Assembly (NCBI GenBank): GCA_024226335.1
Contig: JAAELY010000079.1
Location: forward strand, 1 to 42,382
Length of the DNA stretch: 42,382 nt
DNA from: a bacterium
Lineage (GTDB): Bacteria > Myxococcota_A > UBA9160 > SZUA-336
Direction of reading: 5' to 3'
Made by a program: the position numbers and the translations under genes. Below are positions 21,667 through 42,186 of the stretch, in pieces; position 1 is the stretch's first letter; every line of letters starts with the position of its first letter. The notes under the pieces are model-generated. The model was not told the DNA's origin, made no database searches, and saw only the letters and a program-made list of their open reading frames with translations.

Positions 21667-24600
21667 ATGCGATTACCCGAACCGCAGGAGTACTCCGCTA
21701 TCCGCTTTCTCGAGACAGTCCGACGCGCGAAAGCCTACCTGGAGGAACAGGGCCGCGTCTCGCTTCGCGCGCTGAGCCGTGAGTTCGAACTGGACGAGGA
21801 ATCTCTGGCCGATCTGGTCGAGGAACTCGTGGACGTGCAGCAGGTCGCGGCTCGGGAGAGCAAGGTTCTTTCCTGGGTCGGCTCTGCCAGAGCGACTTCC
21901 GGCGAAGAGATGCCGGTGGGTACGGCAAGACCTTCCGCGGAAGCTGCGACTCGACAATCTGGCGGAGCGGAGCGTCGCCAGCTGACGGTCATGTTCTGCG
22001 ACCTCGTGGATTCGACGGATCTCTCTCAACGTCTCGACGTCGAGGATCTGCGCAACATCGTGCGCGCCTACCACGAGTCGGCTTCCCGGGTCGTCGAAGA
22101 TTACGAAGGTCACGTCGCCCAGTATCTGGGGGACGGCCTGTTGATCTATTTCGGCTATCCGCAAGCCCGCGAAGATGCCGCGGAGCGTGCCGTCCGAGCG
22201 GGGCGCGAGATTCTCACGGCGCTCGTCCGCTTGAACAGCACACTCGATTCGCAACACCGCATCCGCCTTTCCGTCCGGATCGGTATCCACACGGGTCCGG
22301 TCGTAGTCGGAGAGATGGGAGGCGGTGCGAAGAGCGAGACGCTTGCACTCGGTGACACCACGAACATCGCAGCGCGTCTTCAGGCAATCGCCAAGGCCGA
22401 CACGGTGGTGGTCAGTGGCGCTACTCTGCGGCTGGTCCGGGGAAAGTTCTCGACGAAGGATCTCGGCACTCCGGAACTGAAGGGGATCACCGAACCGATC
22501 CACGCGTATTCCGTACTGCGCTCGTCCCGCATTCATGGTCAGCTCGACGTGGATCCGCGCAAGCTCACTCCGCTGGTGGGACGTGACCAGGAGCTGGGAT
22601 TGCTGCTCGAACGCTGGGATAAGGTCGAGGAGGGCGAAGGGCAGGCGGTGTTCCTGTCGGGCGAAGCCGGCCTCGGGAAGACACGGCTGTTTCGAGCGTT
22701 CCGCGAGCGGATGGCCGACACGCCCCACGGCTGGCTCGAATGTCGTTGCTCGCCCTACACACAGAGGACCGCCTTCCAGCCCGTGATCGATCTTCTCGAG
22801 CAGGAAATGGGTTTTCAGAGCGGAGACGATCCCGAGACGAAGCTCGCGCGTCTCGAAGAAGGCGTAGCGGCTGCCGGTCTTTCCGTTGCAGAGGCACTGC
22901 CGTTGCTCGCACCACTGCTCTCGTTGTCCCTCCCGGATCGCGTGGCCTCCGTCGAGTATTCCCGCGAGCTTCAACGCAAGAAGACCATCGAGGCACTGGT
23001 CGCCTGCGTCTTCGGGCTCGCCGAGTCGCAGCCGCTGGTGTTGCTGGTCGAGGACCTCCACTGGTGCGATGCATCCACGCTCGAGCTTCTGGGTTGGTTT
23101 CTCGAACAGAACGCCACCGCAAGAGTCCTGACGCTGATGAGCTTTCGGCCCGACTTCGAGCCGCCCTGGCCGGTGCGCTCTCACATCACACCACTTGCGG
23201 TAAAGCGGCTGTCCCGCCGCCAGGCCACGAACATGGTCGGTCGCATGACTCGCGACGTGCCGTTGCCCACTGCGGTGATCGAACGCGTCGTGGAGCGCGC
23301 CGATGGTGTGCCGCTCTTCGTGGAAGAACTCACGAAGATGGTATTGGAGTCGGGTCTGGTCGAGGAACGAGAGAGTCGCTACGAGCTCACGGGATCGATT
23401 GCGGAACTCGCCGTGCCGGCCACGCTCCAGGACTCGCTGATGGCGCGTCTCGATCGACTCGACGAGGGCAAGGAGGTCGCGCAACTCGGCGCCGTTCTCG
23501 GACGCGAGTTCAACTTTGAGTTGTTGCGCAGCGTCTGGCTCGATGAGGAATACCGCCTGCGCGCAGGATTGGTACAACTCGTGGATGCCGAACTTCTTTT
23601 CCAACGGGGAGCGTCGCCCGCGGCCGAGTTCACCTTCAAGCACGCACTGATCCAGGAGACCGCCTACCAGTCACTCCTGCGGAGTGACCGCCAACAGTTT
23701 CACGCGCGCATCGCGCGGGTGCTCGAAGAGCAGTTCCCGGAGCGTGTACGGTTGGAGCCGGAGGTCATCGCATGGCATTGCGATCAGGCCGGGCTTGCCG
23801 AGAAAGCCATCGCGAATTACCAGCGCGCCGGTGAGCAAGCGAGGGAGCGAACGGCGAACGAGGACGCCGTCGGTCACATCCGGCGCGCACTCGAACTGCT
23901 GACGACACTCCCTGAGTCTCTGCAGCGCGACCGGGTGGAGATCGGTCTACAGATGGAGATCGCGGTGCCATTGGGTGTGGCGCGTGGATTTGCTCACCTG
24001 GAATGCCAGGCCGCCTACCAGCGAGCCTACGAGTTGGCCGAGCGGACCGGTGACGCCCCGGAGCTGCCTCGAGCTCTCGTGGGATTGTCGATGACCCACT
24101 ACATACAGGGAGAACTAGCGACTTCGAGAGATCTCGCCGAGCGCGCGCTTGCGGCGGCCGAACCGCGCGGAGACACCAGCAGCCTCGCCTACGCCCATGA
24201 ATCCGTTGGCCAGTCGCTCTACTGGGAGGGCGAGCTCTCCCGCGCCCTTCATCACTTCGAGCGGGCCATTCTTCTCGATGACGGAAGCGATCGCGTTTCA
24301 CTCGCAACTCCCGGGATCGATTGGGAGCCCTGCGTCGTTTCACGCAGCCACGCGGCGCACTGCCACTGGGTACTCGGCCGACCCGATCGCGCCAGGGCGT
24401 TGAGTCTGGAGGCCGTGACCGTCGCCGAGGGAAGAAAGCAGGTGATGAGCCATGCCATCGCCTTTCATTTTGCGAGCTTGATCAACGCGCTGCGCGGCGA
24501 GTACGCACTGACCCTGCAAAGCACCGAGGAACACATCGCGTTGTGCGAAAGGCTCGGCTTTCCCGTCTATCTCGGTCTGGGCCGGACGTATCGAGGTTGG

Positions 24601-25092
24601 GCGCGAGCCCACCTGGGAGAGGCCGATGAAGGCATCGCGGAGATGCAGCGCGGAATCGTCGAGGTCGCGGGAACCGGCGGCAAGATCGGAGCGGGCGAGG
24701 GGATGAGCATGTTTGGCGAGGTTCTGTTGTCCGTCGGACGCGGCGAAGAGGCTCGAGGGGCTCTCGGAATTGGCAGTTCCCTATCCGAACAAAACGGTGA
24801 GCACCTGTGGGACGTCGAACTGCGCAGGCTACAGGCCGAGATCCTCCTGGACGTGGACGACGCTTCGACCGAGGCCGAAGGCCTGTTTCAAGAAGCGTTG
24901 GAGATCGCGAGGAATCAAAAGGCAAAGTCCTGGGAGTTGCGCGCCGCCACGGGGCTCGCGCGGCTGTGGCAGCGCCAGGGCAGGAAATTCGAAGCTCGCG
25001 ACCTTCTCGCTCCCGTCCACGGCTGGTTCAGCGAGGGCCTGGACACGCGAGATCTGAAGGATGCAAAGGCGTTGCTGGAGCAACTGGCGTAG
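21667..25092 (+). CDS. Class III nucleotide cyclase-AAA ATPase-TPR signalling protein
   Basis: 1141 residues with three modules. Residues 10-70 form a helical winged-helix-like segment (VSLRALSREFELDEESLADLVEELV). Residues 104-280 are a class III adenylate/guanylate cyclase domain: metal-binding Asp112 (MFCDLVDST) and Asp156 (QYLGDGLLIYFGYP), then RIGIHTGPVVVGEMGG and the GDTTNIAARLQ transition-state motif. From about 300 to 720 is an AAA/STAND-type ATPase with Walker A GEAGLGKTR (about 331-340) and Walker B LVLLVEDLHWCD (about 456-467). The rest is TPR-like helical repeats. The whole layout is known from myxobacterial, mycobacterial and proteobacterial proteins that link cyclic nucleotide synthesis to a protein-binding STAND switch. 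The ATG has GAGGGT about 10 nt upstream. The signal sensed is unknown. Confidence 0.92.
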   Translation: MRLPEPQEYSAIRFLETVRRAKAYLEEQGRVSLRALSREFELDEESLADLVEELVDVQQVAARESKVLSWVGSARATSGEEMPVGTARPSAEAATRQSGGAERRQLTVMFCDLVDSTDLSQRLDVEDLRNIVRAYHESASRVVEDYEGHVAQYLGDGLLIYFGYPQAREDAAERAVRAGREILTALVRLNSTLDSQHRIRLSVRIGIHTGPVVVGEMGGGAKSETLALGDTTNIAARLQAIAKADTVVVSGATLRLVRGKFSTKDLGTPELKGITEPIHAYSVLRSSRIHGQLDVDPRKLTPLVGRDQELGLLLERWDKVEEGEGQAVFLSGEAGLGKTRLFRAFRERMADTPHGWLECRCSPYTQRTAFQPVIDLLEQEMGFQSGDDPETKLARLEEGVAAAGLSVAEALPLLAPLLSLSLPDRVASVEYSRELQRKKTIEALVACVFGLAESQPLVLLVEDLHWCDASTLELLGWFLEQNATARVLTLMSFRPDFEPPWPVRSHITPLAVKRLSRRQATNMVGRMTRDVPLPTAVIERVVERADGVPLFVEELTKMVLESGLVEERESRYELTGSIAELAVPATLQDSLMARLDRLDEGKEVAQLGAVLGREFNFELLRSVWLDEEYRLRAGLVQLVDAELLFQRGASPAAEFTFKHALIQETAYQSLLRSDRQQFHARIARVLEEQFPERVRLEPEVIAWHCDQAGLAEKAIANYQRAGEQARERTANEDAVGHIRRALELLTTLPESLQRDRVEIGLQMEIAVPLGVARGFAHLECQAAYQRAYELAERTGDAPELPRALVGLSMTHYIQGELATSRDLAERALAAAEPRGDTSSLAYAHESVGQSLYWEGELSRALHHFERAILLDDGSDRVSLATPGIDWEPCVVSRSHAAHCHWVLGRPDRARALSLEAVTVAEGRKQVMSHAIAFHFASLINALRGEYALTLQSTEEHIALCERLGFPVYLGLGRTYRGWARAHLGEADEGIAEMQRGIVEVAGTGGKIGAGEGMSMFGEVLLSVGRGEEARGALGIGSSLSEQNGEHLWDVELRRLQAEILLDVDDASTEAEGLFQEALEIARNQKAKSWELRAATGLARLWQRQGRKFEARDLLAPVHGWFSEGLDTRDLKDAKALLEQLA

Positions 25093-34701: not shown

Positions 34702-36801
34702 ATGAGTCGTCGAGAAGTTCGAACTTTCTGTCGGGTGTGCGAGCCTTCATGTGGTCTGATCGGAGTTGTGCAGGACGGTGCGCTGCAGGCATTGCGGCCC
34801 GATCGCGAGCACCCAGTCACACGCGGCTTCGCCTGTAACAAGGGGATTGCGGGGATCGACATCCATCGGGATCCGGATCGCCTCGACGTACCCATGCGCG
34901 TTCGCAAAGCCGGTGACTTCGAAGAGGTTTCCTGGGACACGGCGCTCTCGGAGATCGCAGCGAAACTGCGCGATCTGAGCGAGCGCCACGGTCCCCAGTC
35001 CATCGCTTCCTATGTCGGGAATCCGAGTGCTTTCAACACGCTGGCGAGACCGGCCATAAGCAGCTTTTTCGCACAGCTAGGCGTGCGGCGCAGTTTCGGT
35101 TCGGGAACTCAGGACTGCGCGAACAAGTTCGCCGGAAGTGAGGCCGTGTTCGGATCGAGCACGATTCACCCGATTCCCGATATCGAACACACCGACGTAC
35201 TGCTGGTTTTCGGTGAGAACCCGCGCGTGAGTCACGCCAGCTTCATCTCGATTCCCGATCCGATGAAGGTGTTGAAGCGGGCGGCCGGTCGCGGCGCGAA
35301 GATCCATTTCATCAATCCCCGCCAGATCGAATCGGCGGGCGAGGGCGTGGGTGATGTAGTTCAGATCCGGCCGGACACCGACGTCTATCTGCTCGCCGCA
35401 CTTCTGTGTGAAATCGATCGCATCGGTGGTTTTGACGAAGACGTGCTGCGGGAGCACGGCGAACGCGTGAAGGAGCTGCGCGACTTCGTGCAGAACTATC
35501 CCGCGCAGCGGGTCGAATCCGTCACGGGCATCGATGCCGAGAGGATTCGCGAGCTGGCAGGTGAATTCTCGCGGGCGAAAGCGGCTTCGGTTCACATGTC
35601 GACGGGCGTTAACATGGGTCGCAACGGAACTCTGGCGTACTGGTTGCTTCATATGTTGAGCTTCGTGACCGGAAATCTCGATCGAAGCGGTGGCAATATC
35701 CTCTCGGTCGGTTTCTACCGGAGCGCCAAAGCAGGACGACGAGAGTTCGAACAGGGCTTCGTCGATACGGAGTTCGGGCGTCTGCGTCGCGGTGCATTGC
35801 CCGGCAATCTCCTGTCCCACTACATACTCGACGTCGAGGAACCGGTCCGGGCCTTGCTCGTCGTATCCGGGAACCCGCTGCTCTCGATCGCCGGCGAAGA
35901 ACGCCTGCGCGAGGCCTTTGCCGAACTCGAACTCCTGGTCGTCGTAGACCTGTACCGAAATGCCACGGCCGAGGTGGCCGACTATCTACTGCCGAGCACC
36001 GATATGTTCGAGCGCGCCGATATCAATATCGCCGGACTCGGGTTGCAGTCCGAGCCTTTCATTCAGTTTACCGATGCGGTCGTCGAGCCGAAGGCCGAGC
36101 GACGCGAGGAGTGGTGGATCTTCGCCCGCCTGTGCCAGGAGATGGGACTGAAGTCCGCACTCGATCGCGGTCCCACTCCCGATCTCTGGGGTCGCATCGA
36201 TCACATGTTGCACGACCGCGGCTTGACGCTCGATCAGGTGCGCGAGCAACCACACGGTGTCGTGTTGCCCCCGCTGACTCCCGGAGACTTCTATCGGGAG
36301 TATCTGCAGACCGGGACTGGTCGGGTCGACTGCTGCCCTCCAGGTTTCACAGAGGCTCTCGACCGAGTGGAGCTGCAGTTCATCGCATCCCAGTCGAAAG
36401 GCAAACAGGACCTCGAACTGATCACCCGGCGCGATGCCTATATGCACAACACCTGGTACCAGAACATCGAAGCCATGAAGCGCGGCGATCGCGATCGCAA
36501 CTATCTCTTCATGCACTCCCGGGATATGGCTACGCGCGGGCTGGAGGACGGCCAGAAGGTGCGCGTGTTCAACGAGCACGGAGCGCTCGAGATCGAGATC
36601 TCCTGCGACGACGACCTGATGCCCGGTGTCGTGGCCATTGTTCACGGTTGGGGAAACGCGCGAACTCCGGGTCTGCGGGTCGCGCAGCGAACCCCCGGCG
36701 TAAACGCAAACGTCCTGTTGCCGATCGGCCCGGACAGTTTCGAGCCACTGTCGAGCCAGTCCTTCATGACCGGAGTTCCAGTCGAAGTCGCCGCGCTCTA
36801 G
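34702..36801 (+). CDS. Molybdopterin oxidoreductase (DMSO reductase family), catalytic subunit
   Basis: 699 residues. The N-terminal 4Fe-4S site is Cys10, Cys13, Cys17 and Cys45 (FCRVCEPSCGLI.. GFACNKG). Then come the bis-MGD domains (VGNPSAFNTLARPAISSFFAQLGV, DVLLVFGENPRVSH, FINPRQIESA) and a C-terminal molydop_binding domain (LELITRRDAYMHNTWYQN.. DGQKVRVFNEHGALEIEI). No Tat leader, so it works in the cytoplasm. The Mo ligand is not evident: around the usual site I read SGTQDCANKF, where the Cys could serve. No small Fe-S or membrane subunit is encoded nearby, so an external electron carrier is needed. Formate dehydrogenase/assimilatory nitrate reductase-like and uncharacterised bacterial members are candidates. 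The stop shares CTAG with the opposite gene. Confidence 0.87.
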   Translation: MSRREVRTFCRVCEPSCGLIGVVQDGALQALRPDREHPVTRGFACNKGIAGIDIHRDPDRLDVPMRVRKAGDFEEVSWDTALSEIAAKLRDLSERHGPQSIASYVGNPSAFNTLARPAISSFFAQLGVRRSFGSGTQDCANKFAGSEAVFGSSTIHPIPDIEHTDVLLVFGENPRVSHASFISIPDPMKVLKRAAGRGAKIHFINPRQIESAGEGVGDVVQIRPDTDVYLLAALLCEIDRIGGFDEDVLREHGERVKELRDFVQNYPAQRVESVTGIDAERIRELAGEFSRAKAASVHMSTGVNMGRNGTLAYWLLHMLSFVTGNLDRSGGNILSVGFYRSAKAGRREFEQGFVDTEFGRLRRGALPGNLLSHYILDVEEPVRALLVVSGNPLLSIAGEERLREAFAELELLVVVDLYRNATAEVADYLLPSTDMFERADINIAGLGLQSEPFIQFTDAVVEPKAERREEWWIFARLCQEMGLKSALDRGPTPDLWGRIDHMLHDRGLTLDQVREQPHGVVLPPLTPGDFYREYLQTGTGRVDCCPPGFTEALDRVELQFIASQSKGKQDLELITRRDAYMHNTWYQNIEAMKRGDRDRNYLFMHSRDMATRGLEDGQKVRVFNEHGALEIEISCDDDLMPGVVAIVHGWGNARTPGLRVAQRTPGVNANVLLPIGPDSFEPLSSQSFMTGVPVEVAAL

Positions 36802-38192
36802 AAAGAGTACTTGGCGCTGAGGAAGAGCCGGTCCTTGTGAGGAATCTGGTCCATGGGCGGGAACTCGCCTTCCTCGTACATCAGGATGCCGCCGGTGACA
36901 CTCAGTGCGTCGCGTACGTCGTAGGTGAGTTGCGCGCGAAGGATCGCGCCGTCCTGCGCATGCGCACCGAAGCTCAGGAAGATCGCGGTGAAGTGCAGGC
37001 TCTGGTTCCAGAAGTCGGCGCTGTAGCGCAGTGAAGCTTCCACGCGGTTTCGACGCGTCTGGTTGAGGGCGTTCTCGAGCACACTGTCGAAACGAGTGGT
37101 ACGCCGGTTAACGATCTCAATCGCCACCGAGCCTTCGTCAAAACCCGAATACTCCATGCCGATCATCGCGTCGAGTCGGCCACGTTCCTTGGGAGAAGGC
37201 TCGAAGAAGTCGAGACCGTCGAAGAAGGCGACCTCTGTCTTCCAGAGAACATTGCCCATGACCTTCTGTCCCGAGATGCCGTACATGGAAATTCGACTGT
37301 GTTCGAGTCCGCTGGGCAGGAAACCCGGACCCACGCCGTGTGGGCGGTCGTCGTAGAAGCGGGCCCAGTGCAAACTCATGTCCCAGCCGCTGAAGATTCC
37401 CGTCAGGGCCAGGGCCCATTCGGTGTCCTGACCACCATTGCCCGGAGTTCTTTCGGGGATGGAGAAGAACGATGATGCAGGCAGGAACTCGCTGCCGGGC
37501 GCTGAGCCCGTGTCGAAACGCGTTTCGTGCACGGCCACGCCGGTCAACTGCCAGGCGCCGAAGAAGTAGTCGAGTCGGGTCATCGTCACCGGCAGGCGAA
37601 GATCCTCGATGTCGACCAGTCCAGGCTCGCGTCGATCGACCGGGTTCAACACGTCGATTACGCGCAGATTGTCCGAGCGTCCCCAGTTCACGATCTGCCG
37701 GCCGAACTTGAGGTCCAGGTTCTCCGATAGTGCGCCGCGGAGCCAGATCTCCTGAAACTCGTTCTCGCGCTCGTGAGCATCGAGAACTTCATTGGAAAAA
37801 TCACTACGCCCTTCGACTGCGTAGAAGTAGTCGCGATAACCGCGTCCTGCGATCCGGCTCTGCCAACCGCCGGGCAGATCCAGGTCGAGTTGGAGGCTCA
37901 GTTCTGCTTGAAGGCGGGTCAATCCACGGTAGTCGGGTTGGCCAGGTGCGGGATGATCTGCGTTGTAGGCGTAGGAGGAAGCGAGGTTTATCGCCCCGGT
38001 CAGATCCCAGAAACGTTCGGTGGGTTCGTCCGTCGGATCGTCGATCCCCTTGTCCGGTTCGGCATCGTCCCCAGACTCTTCGTCATCGAAGCCGCCGAGA
38101 ATATCGTCCACGTCCTGAGCGAAGACATCGGTAGAGTGGAGGGCCGGGCCTCCAATCAGAACCAGGGCGAGGATGAAACGAGCAAATAGCAT
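36798..38192 (-). CDS. DUF1302-like outer-membrane beta-barrel protein
   Basis: 464 residues. It has a signal peptide (MLFARFILALVLIGGPALHSTDVFAQD), then an acidic stretch (DDILGGFDDEESGDDAEPDKG) and a long series of amphipathic strands ending in KYSF with the terminal Phe. NWGRSDNLRVIDVLNPVDRREPG and FDTGSAPGSEFLPASSFFSI are typical of DUF1302/DUF1302-like barrels found beside MMPL permeases. The open frame runs further upstream, but the ATG at 38192 starts the signal peptide. It is the last gene of the tetR-MMPL-LolA-like operon, 14 nt after its neighbour. It would be the outer-membrane end of a transport line. The stop codon overlaps that of the opposite molybdoenzyme gene. Confidence 0.85.
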   Translation of the reverse strand: MLFARFILALVLIGGPALHSTDVFAQDVDDILGGFDDEESGDDAEPDKGIDDPTDEPTERFWDLTGAINLASSYAYNADHPAPGQPDYRGLTRLQAELSLQLDLDLPGGWQSRIAGRGYRDYFYAVEGRSDFSNEVLDAHERENEFQEIWLRGALSENLDLKFGRQIVNWGRSDNLRVIDVLNPVDRREPGLVDIEDLRLPVTMTRLDYFFGAWQLTGVAVHETRFDTGSAPGSEFLPASSFFSIPERTPGNGGQDTEWALALTGIFSGWDMSLHWARFYDDRPHGVGPGFLPSGLEHSRISMYGISGQKVMGNVLWKTEVAFFDGLDFFEPSPKERGRLDAMIGMEYSGFDEGSVAIEIVNRRTTRFDSVLENALNQTRRNRVEASLRYSADFWNQSLHFTAIFLSFGAHAQDGAILRAQLTYDVRDALSVTGGILMYEEGEFPPMDQIPHKDRLFLSAKYSF

Positions 38193-38206
38193 GGGGTACG
38201 CAAGGC

Positions 38207-39001
38207 TCAGAGGCCTTTCTCCAGTCTTCGCACACTGAAGATGTTCTCGTCGAGATCCTGGTTGAATTTCGTCTTGTTGTTCTTCAAGACCGTCTTGTGC
38301 AGGGTCTTCTTGCCCTTCTTCGTGGTCATGTGGATCTCGGTCGGGACCCAGATATCGTCGATTTCCTCGAGCGACTTCACGTCCATGTAACGCAGGCGGC
38401 CGCCCTTTTTCAGCCAGCCGACCGAGCGGATCACCACGAAGTTGTCCTGGCGAACGAATACGACCGATTTGGTGTAGCCCGTGCGATCGATCTCCTTCTC
38501 GGTCCGGGGTGTGGACTGGATCTGCCACACCTTCACGCCTTTGACTTCGGTCTCCTTCATCAGTTCGTAGTCGTAGCGTTCGAGTTCGCGCGAACTCATG
38601 TCGGAGTAGTTGAAATCGCTGCCCATGAAGCTACCGCTCTGATCGCTCGCGGCGATGCGCTTGGTCTTCTTCAGTGCAGGCATGTAGAGCCACTGGTCGT
38701 CGTCGCGATCGATTTCGTCGTAGTCGTAGGTGAGAAATCCCGTGTCTTTGACGTCCGCTGGGACGAGGAAGAACATGATCGACTGGGTGTCTTCGCCCTG
38801 GTCGCGGCGAAACGAACGCAAGACTCGTCTGCGCTCCTTGCCATTCTTGTCGATCAGGATCATTTCCATTTCCTGGACCACGGAATCGCCATCGTCCCGG
38901 TCTTCGGCCTTCTGCATGATCTCGCGGGCCGTCAGAGCGCTCGCATGGAGCGGCACGAGCAAGAGCAGCGCTGCCAGGATTGGGATGAAACGTAGGTGCA
39001 T
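38207..39001 (-). CDS. LolA-fold outer-membrane lipoprotein-sorting-like protein
   Basis: 264 residues. It has a signal peptide (MHLRFIPILAALLLLVPLHASA), then a LolA/LolB-like half-barrel: LTAREIMQKAEDRDDGDSVVQEMEMILIDKNGKERRRVLRSFRRDQGEDTQSIMFFLVPADVKDTGFLTYDYDE, with an alternating pattern of strands and QWLYMPALKKTKRI. These proteins carry lipids or lipoproteins through the periplasm and are frequently encoded with MMPL/RND permeases. GAGG lies 9 nt before the ATG. It sits between the permease gene (41 nt) and the barrel gene (14 nt). The long open frame extending upstream to 40288 is only an overlap with the permease gene and is not used. Role as shuttle between permease and barrel is inferred. 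Confidence 0.9.
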   Translation of the reverse strand: MHLRFIPILAALLLLVPLHASALTAREIMQKAEDRDDGDSVVQEMEMILIDKNGKERRRVLRSFRRDQGEDTQSIMFFLVPADVKDTGFLTYDYDEIDRDDDQWLYMPALKKTKRIAASDQSGSFMGSDFNYSDMSSRELERYDYELMKETEVKGVKVWQIQSTPRTEKEIDRTGYTKSVVFVRQDNFVVIRSVGWLKKGGRLRYMDVKSLEEIDDIWVPTEIHMTTKKGKKTLHKTVLKNNKTKFNQDLDENIFSVRRLEKGL

Positions 39002-39042
39002 GGGAGTTTTCCTCTTTGTAAGTCCCCGGGAAACCGGCCGGA

Positions 39043-41469
39043 TCAGTCCTGCGGCGTCAACCTCTTTTCCCGTCCCAGCGTCAGAGCCATGAGTGCCGGG
39101 GCGAGGATAACATCGAGAATGAAAGCCGCCGCGATGCAGAAGCTGATCAACGCCCCGAAGATGAAGAGGTTCCCCATGCTGGAGAGCATATAGACGGAGA
39201 ACCCCGCCGAGAGCACGATCGAAGTGACCGCCATCGCCTTTCCGGTGGTTTCCAGTGTCTTGCGCGTCGCTTGTTGTGGATCGCCGGTTTCGTCGAAGTA
39301 GCGCCGGTAGTTGTGAATGAAATGGATCGTATCGTCGACGGCCAGGCCGATCGCGATTCCACCGATCATCAAGGTGAACGTGTCGATTGAGAGGCCGAGT
39401 ACACCCATCAGACCGAGCGTCGTGATGATCGGTGCGAGGTTCGGCACCATGCTCGCCAGGCCCGCCCTCAGGTTGCCGATCAAGAGCATCATCAAGGGAG
39501 TGATGATCGCCAGGGCCATGACATAACTGGCGGCCATGCTGTGCATGACGGCGTAGATCGTCCCCGACATCATCTTCATCAAGCCCGTTACCTGAACCTG
39601 AGCACGTTCTCCCAGTCTTGCTTCGAACACCTCTTGAATGCTCTTCACGAAGGGTACGTAGTTGATTGCATCCTGGTACGGCACCCGAATCGTAAAGCGA
39701 CTGGTGCTGAAGACGGAGTCGACGAGGTCTTCCAGATCGTCCGAGCCGCTGTTCTCGAACAGCAGGAGTTCCTGTGCGATGAGTTGTCGCTCTTCTGGAA
39801 TGCTGTAGTAGTCGCTGCGGTTCTCGTTGAGTGCCTGGTTGATTTCCTTGAGCACGTCGGTCACCGACAGGGTCTTGCCGACTTCGAAGCCGACTCCCAG
39901 GCCCGCTTGCACGGTATCGGTATTGAGGGCGTCGAGGTCGCGTAGGATCTGAGGATCGTGCAAGCCGTTCTCGCGCCCGGTGTCGACCAGAACCTCCAGA
40001 CTCATGCTGCCCTTGAAGTCCCGGTCCACGATCTCCGTGCTTTTGCGCACCATATGGTCTTCGGGGAACCAACCGAGAAAGTCGTGCGAGAAGTGCAGTG
40101 TCCGGGCGCTCACGAGACCCCCGACGATCAACACGGCGGCGGCCGCCATCATCCAGCGGGGATTTCGGACGGAGAAATCTCCGGTTGCGATCAGAACGCG
40201 TTCCAGGAACCCGCCCCGCTGGACCAAAGTACTCTTGCGCGCTTTCAGGGGAGTCAGCGATAGCAGCACCGGGAGCATCACCAGGCAATAGACGAGTCCG
40301 AGCAGGATGCCGATCGGAGCGAAGATCCCCACATGCGAGATGGGCGCGAGTTCGGCCACGCTAAAGCTCAGCATACCGCCCGCCGTCGTCAGGCCCGTCA
40401 TCAGGATCGCGAGTCCGGAGTGACCAAGCGCGTGGACGATCGCCTCGTCTCGAGGGCGACCCTGGTCGATTTCGAGATAGGTGACCGTCAACAGGTGCAC
40501 TGCAGCGCCGATGCCCACGGCGAGCAGGAAGCTGGGCAGAATCTGGGTCGGGATATTGATGGAAACTCCCACCCACGCCATGATGCCCAGCGTCGATACA
40601 ATCGAGAGAATGACGACGAGTAGCGTCAATACGACAGCGGACACGCGCCTGAACAGCGAGAAAAGCACGACGCAGATGATCCCAATCATCACGACCAGGA
40701 ACTTCTGCATATCGGTCCCCATGCTCTTGACCATTCCGTCTGTAATCACGGGGGTGCCGGAGCCCACCAGCTTGAAGTCGGGTTTCTGGTGGCGCTCCAT
40801 GACCGCCAGGAGGGCATTCACCATTTCCTCGGCTTCCGCATTGCCCACCATCTCTTCAGCGGACGGTTCGTTGGCGGATTCCTCGTCGAACCCGCTGAGC
40901 GCATCGTCGGCCTCGTTGGACTTGTAGAGGCTGCCGCGGGCTACGACCGTCGACAGACGCCCGTCATTCGATAGCACCAGGTTCTTGTAAAGAGGATTGG
41001 CGAGTGCGCGCGCGCGAATAGCCTCGCGTTGGGCTTCTGTTTCGGGCCAGTCCTCGAAAAGGTCCTCGACGATCAATTCTTCTTCGTTCCCGAGTGTGGA
41101 CCGCGCGTTGATCAGGCTGCTGACTTCATCCAGGTACGGGACGTTGTCTTCCAGGTCCTTGTGAAACGCTCGCAATCGCTCGAGCGACTGCTCAGAGAAC
41201 GGATCCGGTGTGTCGACGACGATCAACGTGTAGTCGTCCTTGCCGAATTGCGTGCGGAAATCCTCCCACGCCAGGCGGTCGGGGGCGTCGGGATGCAGGA
41301 AACTCTCGGGCGACGCATCGAACTCCAGCGTTGGAAGCTGCGATGCGCACACGGAGGCGAGCAACAAGGAAAGTCCGAGAGTCAGCCAACGCCGGCGCAG
41401 GATCATCCGTCCAAAGTCTTCGAACCCTCTTTCGATGCGCGCGCGCAGCGGTACCTCAGCTTCAGCCAT
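39043..41469 (-). CDS. MMPL/RND-family inner-membrane transporter
   Basis: 808 residues arranged as two repeats, each with one TM segment, a large periplasmic domain and five further TM segments. The first TM is about 30-45 (WLTLGLSLLLASV); the SSD-like core follows (FLVVMIGIICVVLFSLFRRVSAVVLTLLVVILSIVSTLGIMAWVGVSINIPTQILPSFLLAVGIGAAVHLLTV). The second repeat ends with GGIAIGLAVDDTIHFIHNYRRYFDETGDPQQA, the GDDT/H motif of MMPL and HpnN/Patched-type transporters. These move lipids or other hydrophobic molecules by the proton gradient. AAAAAGGA is 8 nt before the ATG, which overlaps the tetR stop by 8 bases. It has no MFP or TolC partner nearby, as usual for MMPL proteins. Confidence 0.92.
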   Translation of the reverse strand: MAEAEVPLRARIERGFEDFGRMILRRRWLTLGLSLLLASVCASQLPTLEFDASPESFLHPDAPDRLAWEDFRTQFGKDDYTLIVVDTPDPFSEQSLERLRAFHKDLEDNVPYLDEVSSLINARSTLGNEEELIVEDLFEDWPETEAQREAIRARALANPLYKNLVLSNDGRLSTVVARGSLYKSNEADDALSGFDEESANEPSAEEMVGNAEAEEMVNALLAVMERHQKPDFKLVGSGTPVITDGMVKSMGTDMQKFLVVMIGIICVVLFSLFRRVSAVVLTLLVVILSIVSTLGIMAWVGVSINIPTQILPSFLLAVGIGAAVHLLTVTYLEIDQGRPRDEAIVHALGHSGLAILMTGLTTAGGMLSFSVAELAPISHVGIFAPIGILLGLVYCLVMLPVLLSLTPLKARKSTLVQRGGFLERVLIATGDFSVRNPRWMMAAAAVLIVGGLVSARTLHFSHDFLGWFPEDHMVRKSTEIVDRDFKGSMSLEVLVDTGRENGLHDPQILRDLDALNTDTVQAGLGVGFEVGKTLSVTDVLKEINQALNENRSDYYSIPEERQLIAQELLLFENSGSDDLEDLVDSVFSTSRFTIRVPYQDAINYVPFVKSIQEVFEARLGERAQVQVTGLMKMMSGTIYAVMHSMAASYVMALAIITPLMMLLIGNLRAGLASMVPNLAPIITTLGLMGVLGLSIDTFTLMIGGIAIGLAVDDTIHFIHNYRRYFDETGDPQQATRKTLETTGKAMAVTSIVLSAGFSVYMLSSMGNLFIFGALISFCIAAAFILDVILAPALMALTLGREKRLTPQD

Positions 41470-42151
41470 GCTCGGAGTCCTTTTTCGGTGGCTCGCGGCG
41501 GATGCCTCGAAGAAAGAGGTCGGCCACGAAATCGGCGTAACGATTCCTGAAATCGGGATCGAACGGGTCTTCATCGAAAACGCGTCGAAATAACGGTGCG
41601 GCGAGCAGGAAGAAATTGATCATGCCCATGAGAGCCGGAACCAGAAAGCGTGGGTCCAGTCTCTCGAAGGCGCCTGTGCTCTGACCTTCGCTGAGCAGAC
41701 TGGACAGGTTGCTGACATTGGGCGCGATGAAATTCGACGCGACACTGTCGGTGATCTCGCTGTCGGGAAGGAGCACCTGCTCCATGAACAGGCGCGGAGC
41801 GTATCGGTCTTCAGCCAGGGTCTCTAGGGTCAGATGGATGAAGCGTCGCAGTCGTTCTTCGGGGGGGCCGTCCGTCCGCAAGGCTTCCGCCAGGCGATCG
41901 CCCACGCGCTCGGCGATCTGTTCGATCACGGCGCGCAGCAGACCCTCTTTTCCGCCGAAATAGTAGTTGGCCAGGGTTGGACGGACCCCGGCTCGCTCTG
42001 CGACGGCCCTCAAGGTGAATCCGGACTGTCCCTGTTCGGCGAGTAGCGCGCGTGCGGCGTCGAGCAGGGCCTGGCGCCCTTGCTGGGTGCTGGCTCCCGG
42101 CGGTCGGCCAGGTCCCTTCTTTCTCGCTCTGCTCGGTGTCTCGCTAGTCAC
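41462..42151 (-). CDS. TetR/AcrR-family repressor of the MMPL operon
   Basis: 229 residues. The N-terminal AT-hook-like KKGPGRPPG is followed by a TetR helix-turn-helix at about 26-75 (QALLDAARALLAEQGQSGFTLRAVAERAGVRPTLANYYFGGKEGLLRAVI). The rest is the ligand-binding dimer domain with a TetR_C-like motif (MGMINFFLLAAPLFRR). It is the first gene of the operon and probably represses it, with the ligand being a substrate of the permease. The start is GTG with no Shine-Dalgarno; a promoter -10 ends 7 nt before it, so the message may be leaderless. The stop overlaps the permease start by 8 bases. Confidence 0.92.
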   Translation of the reverse strand: MTSETPSRARKKGPGRPPGASTQQGRQALLDAARALLAEQGQSGFTLRAVAERAGVRPTLANYYFGGKEGLLRAVIEQIAERVGDRLAEALRTDGPPEERLRRFIHLTLETLAEDRYAPRLFMEQVLLPDSEITDSVASNFIAPNVSNLSSLLSEGQSTGAFERLDPRFLVPALMGMINFFLLAAPLFRRVFDEDPFDPDFRNRYADFVADLFLRGIRREPPKKDSEHG

Positions 42152-42155
42152 GAAT

Positions 42156-42175
42156 TTTATTGTACAGACAATAAA
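42156..42175. promoter_or_regulatory. TetR operator palindrome over the operon promoter
   Basis: TTTATTGTACAGACAATAAA: two perfect 8-base arms with a 4-base centre, 4 nt upstream of the tetR GTG. It overlaps the predicted -10 (minus-strand TACAAT, 42164-42159) and part of the spacer, an ideal place for repression. A palindrome of this size next to a TetR gene is the usual autoregulatory operator. Confidence 0.8.
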
Positions 42176-42186
42176 TAAAGAATCAA
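42159..42186 (-). promoter_or_regulatory. Predicted promoter of the tetR-MMPL operon
   Basis: On the minus strand TTGATT (-35) is followed after 16 bases by TACAAT (-10), close to the sigma-70 consensus, in an A/T-rich patch. The expected start of transcription, about 7 nt after the -10, falls at or next to the GTG start codon. Confidence 0.6.

Follow-up and report, generated by a model that had tools for sequence, protein, structure and literature searches.

A TetR-MMPL-LolA-like-DUF1302 operon from a Myxococcota_A genome, with a sequence box common to its inner membrane pump and its outer membrane barrel

Background

The AmeABCD cassette of Castellaniella defragrans encodes together an HAE3 pump, a DUF1302 protein and a LolA-superfamily periplasmic protein and acts on an apolar substrate; this system handles monoterpenes (PMC6394551). 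The LolA-superfamily carrier of the cassette is a DUF1329-type protein of 451 aa, which is accompanied by a second periplasmic protein, AmeC (COG4447), and no TetR gene has been reported for it (PMC6394551). In Thalassolituus oleivorans, the n-C28-induced genes TOL_3187/TOL_3188 encode an MMPL protein fused with a LolA-like domain in a single polypeptide and a downstream porin-like protein (PMC6304351). The Porphyromonas gingivalis operon PG1175-PG1181 and operons of P. intermedia unite TetR, MMPL and LolA-like carrier genes in one induced unit; these operons are iron-responsive, include ABC transporter genes and have no described DUF1302 barrel (PMC10434189). In Pseudomonas putida, PP_0765/PP_0766 and PP_2018/PP_2019 provide a DUF1302 barrel, a DUF1329 carrier and an extra periplasmic protein (PP_2018), while the efflux transporter is encoded elsewhere; no motif shared between the components has been described (PMC10866462). 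HpnN and MmpL3/4/5 also have the MMPL-type RND fold and carry lipid or siderophore cargo, but the pump studied here falls below the cut-offs of these families, and they work with other partners. To our knowledge, the way in which MMPL/HAE3-type RND pumps hand hydrophobic cargo across the Gram-negative periplasm has not been settled, and we know of no acceptor for the LolA3-type carriers.

In this work, we analyzed a four-gene operon located in a 42,382-nt stretch of DNA (hereafter the window; assembly GCA_024226335.1, contig JAAELY010000079.1) from a bacterium of the Myxococcota_A lineage. Like AmeABCD, it combines an HAE3-type pump, a DUF1302 barrel and a LolA-superfamily protein, but in another gene order and with a carrier of a different family; since the operon has no fourth periplasmic component, the AmeABCD set of DUF1302, DUF1329, COG4447 and HAE3 in one cassette is not reproduced. 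It shares the pump, the LolA-like domain and the downstream outer membrane protein with TOL_3187/TOL_3188, in which the first two are fused, and the TetR, MMPL and carrier genes with PG1175-PG1181. The nearest solved relative of the carrier is P. gingivalis LolA3 (PGN0947, structure 9tp6; PMC13103446), which does not imply that LolA3 is the carrier encoded in PG1175-PG1181. The operon is a real four-gene unit of an already known type (AmeABCD, TOL_3187/3188, PG1175-81). What looks new is a sequence box common to its pump and its barrel, and the presence of several pumps per carrier-barrel pair.

Organization of the operon

All four genes lie on the minus strand. They encode a TetR-family regulator (41462..42151; 229 aa, GTG start; Pfam TetR_N 5e-13, TetR_C_9 6e-13), an MMPL/HAE3 RND permease (39043..41469; 808 aa; Pfam MMPL 4e-29, TIGR00921 HAE3 2.5e-59), a LolA-like periplasmic carrier of the PF17131 family (38207..39001; 264 aa; Pfam 1e-55) and a DUF1302 (PF06980) outer membrane barrel (36798..38192; 464 aa; Pfam 4e-26), the latter two with signal-peptide-like N-terminal stretches. 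The genes are separated by -8 nt (TetR/MMPL), 41 nt (MMPL/carrier) and 14 nt (carrier/barrel). A preliminary description of the window had reported four packed genes of these identities; its coordinates and gaps are exactly reproduced, the Pfam matches confirm the components, and its reading of the locus as a one-unit relay from the inner membrane through the periplasm to the outer membrane, under local TetR control, is supported. Its statement that all needed parts stand in one unit is only partly borne out: the packing agrees with it, whereas three further pumps of the same clade are encoded away from the single carrier-barrel pair, and many pumps in the class to which the window belongs are unlinked or divergent.

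At its 3' end the operon overlaps by 4 nt with a convergent molybdopterin oxidoreductase gene (34768-36801, plus strand). Molybdopterin oxidoreductases occur within three genes of clade pumps at three other loci as well (L144:155-2356, L161:2649-4820, L162:7602-9749), the four loci belonging to different genomes, and a functional link to the substrate is possible. The enzyme was considered as a fifth part of the system and left out, the four proteins being only 27-32% identical to one another. Elsewhere, the window contains an IS3-like transposase pair at its edge (41-1518; rve integrase core and HTH_Tnp_1) and encodes a large protein that combines guanylate cyclase, AAA ATPase and TPR domains (21667-25092).

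A candidate operator, the perfect 8-4-8 palindrome TTTATTGT-CTGT-ACAATAAA (42156..42175), is located 4 nt before the TetR start. A perfect 8-mer palindrome was present in 70 of 2000 shuffles of the 200 nt used as a chance control. The palindrome contains the -10 element of a sigma-70-like promoter match, TTGATT-16-TACAAT (42159..42186, minus strand), which is the sole match in the region and is weak when taken alone, 1.2 being expected by chance. The entire genome has a single copy of the palindrome core, TTATTGTNNNNACAATAA. Because the palindrome overlaps the likely promoter and its core is unique, TetR is most likely a repressor of its own operon only and would act at this candidate site. 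The palindrome was rejected as a conserved operator, as the nearest TetR relatives (L039, L043) lack it; other TetR genes heading such operons (L087, L088, L090, and L103 from Desulfosarcina widdelii, a culturable relative with a clade carrier) show different palindromes. The predicted -10 element, a few nucleotides before the TetR GTG (42151-42186), would give a nearly leaderless mRNA, and the true TetR start may be further downstream than the annotated one.

Family assignment and structure of the pump, carrier and barrel

The pump has two MMPL stretches above the family cut-off and an RND-type layout, with candidate transmembrane segments around two large loops; D712-D713 and H716, in TM10, are invariant. 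TIGR00921 is its best model, with 201 bits against a cut-off of 352, which makes the protein HAE3-like without being a member by that model. Its similarity to HpnN (4e-27; 94 of the 752 bits required by the equivalog model) and to BstA (7e-7) is weak and far below the cut-offs. The siderophore exporters MmpL4 and MmpL5 are among its best sequence matches in the PDB.

With 188.5 bits against a cut-off of 30 and a LolA-like fold, the carrier belongs to PF17131 (LolA_like); a weak DUF1329 match (2e-7) is also present. The predicted structure (pLDDT 91) superimposes on P. gingivalis LolA3 with TM scores of 0.83-0.91, and the two proteins are 40% identical. Carrier residues specific to the clade were listed, none of which could be mapped onto a binding site. 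The barrel likewise belongs to its family, PF06980, by both score (92.5 bits, cut-off 23.2) and fold. It is predicted to have about 18 strands (pLDDT 88), preceded by a disordered N-terminal tail (residues 14-56, pLDDT below 50); among solved structures, AlgE and the Occ channels are closest to it in fold (E about 1e-12, TM about 0.5).

A box common to the pump loop and the barrel tail

The disordered tail of the barrel contains the acidic and hydrophobic sequence DDILGGFDDE (residues 29-38; 38079..38108, minus strand), in which F35, the sole invariant residue of the tail, is conserved in all 42 orthologues. A similar sequence, DDALSGFDEE with the nearly invariant F194 (residues 188-197; 40879..40908, minus strand), is found in the pump, in the variable periplasmic loop that connects its first and second transmembrane segments. 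The consensus of this box is DDhLxGF[DE][DE]. Orthologous barrel tails carry one or several copies, up to four or five by eye in two of the loci (L044, L046). The box, as well as the palindrome, had escaped the preliminary description.

A motif model of ten positions, trained on barrel tails only, was used to search the other proteins. At 12 bits or more it recognized 40 of the 57 clade pumps versus none of the 25 other MMPL proteins (p=4e-10), three of which adjoin a clade carrier; most of the pump sites are at residues 175-211. Elsewhere, the model matched 1 of 54 carriers and 6 of 685 other genes. At 10 bits or more, sites were found in 43 of 58 clade pump loops, compared with 1.0 of 58 after the loops had been shuffled, and the acidic composition is therefore no explanation for the box. 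The 15 clade pumps with no site at 10 bits include those of three genomes (G018, G041, G056) whose barrels keep the box. Retention is seen in unlinked (21/29), linked (17/24) and divergent (5/5) pumps. In a DNA-level scan of the whole genome, the strict motif occurred at eight places, four of them in this barrel and three in clade pumps. Genome matches in a PilB-like ATPase, an ABC-type permease, an aldehyde dehydrogenase and a short non-gene frame were judged to be due to chance. The PilB/GspE-like ATPase (L181; contig C124 near 4236) has the strict match DEVMAGFDDG in an acidic linker, probably by chance because this protein should be cytoplasmic.

Three genomes (G012, G013, G057) have no clade pump but keep both the carrier and the box of the barrel. 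The box is therefore independent of the pump, and, judged from these sequences, the carrier would be its reader. A simple charge attraction between the two is not supported, as the overall charge of the carrier is not positive (median pI 5.9). Flavobacterial and alphaproteobacterial MMPL-carrier-barrel operons have no box, which is thus not needed by every such relay. Covariation between barrel and pump at the residue before F (p=0.03) comes from few independent events and is only suggestive. Degenerate boxes also seem to vary in step in the two proteins, with SF in the genome G011 (L061, L153) and FDA in Helicobacteraceae (L104/L105/L106).

Genomic context and co-occurrence

Gene order was assessed in named genomes of several phyla, in which 29 loci have a carrier belonging to this clade. 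At 25 of these loci the gene immediately upstream of the carrier is the pump, and at 24 the gene immediately downstream is the barrel, mostly with short gaps; at the other five the contig ends, with no gene called downstream. This order is beyond chance. In three genomes (L113-L115) the pump and the LolA-like carrier are fused, as in TOL_3187/TOL_3188, and the next gene encodes a DUF1302-like barrel; no box is present in the barrel tails visible in two of them (L114, L115). In the window's own class, the carrier-barrel pair is constant, while the pump is divergent (L045, L046, L054, L055, L057) or elsewhere; in the genome G059, a TetR-pump pair (L143) is separate from the carrier-barrel pair (L044). 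Genes for an MlaE permease, an ATPase and MlaD lie a few genes upstream in two relatives, G026 and G059 (L043:5962-9143, TetR-pump-carrier; L044:3660-6302, carrier-barrel), and the Mla operon of L043 also contains an ABC_trans_aux lipoprotein.

Both the carrier, with orthologues defined by E below 1e-80, and the pump clade were examined in 59 genomes, which share ancestry, so that the counts are not independent events. The carrier is present in 28 genomes, all 28 of which have the barrel. The pump clade is found in 25 of these 28 versus 2 of the 31 carrier-negative genomes (p=3e-11), and both of the latter are incomplete. Scattered orthologues had been named in advance as an argument against a single unit; such scattering is partly found in gene order but not in occurrence, in which the presence of the carrier is closely tied to that of the barrel and the pump clade.

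Numbers of pumps and exits are unequal. The genome studied here encodes four clade pumps, a single orthologue of the carrier and a single DUF1302 barrel that scores above the cut-off, and G011 has about 20 pumps with one carrier and one barrel. In the pump tree, linked and unlinked pumps are intermixed, and the window pump groups with unlinked ones. The unequal numbers and the mixed tree fit a shared exit, and one carrier-barrel pair appears to serve several clade pumps.

Proposed relay and alternative explanations

We propose that the four genes form a relay under TetR control and driven by protons, which moves a hydrophobic small molecule or lipid. The substrate would first be extracted from the inner membrane by the HAE3-type RND pump, at the expense of the proton gradient (D712, D713, H716). 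The LolA-fold carrier would dock on the pump box, receive the substrate and diffuse through the periplasm with the cargo in its hydrophobic groove; docking on the box of the barrel tail would then release the substrate into or through the approximately 18-stranded DUF1302 barrel, to or through the outer membrane. One box at both membranes could thus be the docking site by which a single shuttle finds both ends. TolC is an exit shared by several pumps, and the carrier-barrel pair may be a common exit of this kind for several clade pumps. Carrier binding to the box, the direction of export and a hydrophobic substrate are each inferred; for the whole model, with box docking of the carrier at both ends and a shared exit, we estimate a probability of roughly 0.55. 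By analogy, the substrate is probably a hydrophobic metabolite or xenobiotic, because published relatives handle monoterpenes, Tween20 and long alkanes and two relatives adjoin an MlaE/MlaD operon.

An ordinary dedicated RND-LolA-barrel unit, in which the box serves some other need (a periplasmic protease, a chaperone, a scaffold, metal binding, or proximity of pump and barrel via a third protein), would agree with the box-less operons of the same type and with the carrier showing no obvious overall charge match to the box. We consider it unlikely: within the set of genes searched, the box is a specific feature of this barrel and this pump clade, and no component besides the carrier has been shown to co-occur with the two. 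Doubtful to a similar degree is import of hydrophobic growth substrates in place of export, since the general function of RND permeases is export driven by protons. Growth on Tween20 requires PP_0765/0766/2018/2019 (PMC10866462), the n-C28 alkane induces TOL_3187/3188 (PMC6304351), and the Mla operons next to the G026 and G059 genes point the same way; yet the growth phenotypes also fit detoxification, and deletion of AmeABCD lowered terpene tolerance and raised Nile Red accumulation (PMC6394551).

More specific cargoes are less probable still. A siderophore- or haem-related cargo is suggested by the Bacteroidota, whose TetR-MMPL-LolA-like operons (PG1175-81 and those of P. intermedia) are induced at least 13-fold under low iron (PMC10434189), and by MmpL4 and MmpL5 as matches of the pump. 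We regard it as improbable: that similarity is generic, no siderophore genes were found among the window genes scanned, and the low-iron operons also contain ABC transporter genes. Lipoprotein sorting, implied by Pfam and PDB names and by the carrier fold, is very improbable for an operon with an RND pump and no LolCDE; moreover, P. gingivalis LolA3 lacks the LolA arginine and binds its LolB only very weakly (PMC13103446), and deletion of lolA3 in F. johnsoniae caused no gliding or amylase-secretion defect (PMC11885536). Hopanoids and sterols, candidates of the preliminary description, are hardly credible. In their favor is the weak similarity of the pump to HpnN and BstA, at scores far below the cut-offs, but this genome, which is 97% complete, gave no match to the squalene-hopene-cyclase family (triterpene cyclases). 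Nor do the orthologues track such genes, the co-occurrence on which that proposal was to be judged: a cyclase is present in 2 of 28 orthologue-bearing genomes versus 10 of 32 without an orthologue (p=0.025 against a link).

Conclusions

Beyond this operon, we tentatively suggest, with less confidence than for the relay itself, that a LolA-fold shuttle docks on one short linear motif that is present on many RND pumps and also, frequently repeated in tandem, on a single barrel, and that the carrier-barrel pair may be an exit hub for pumps with different substrates. If the model is true, the shared box would identify the acceptor of the carrier and explain how the shuttle is targeted, and the hand-off would become testable by single-residue changes. 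Sharing of the exit would also change the interpretation of the unlinked MMPL pumps in these genomes.
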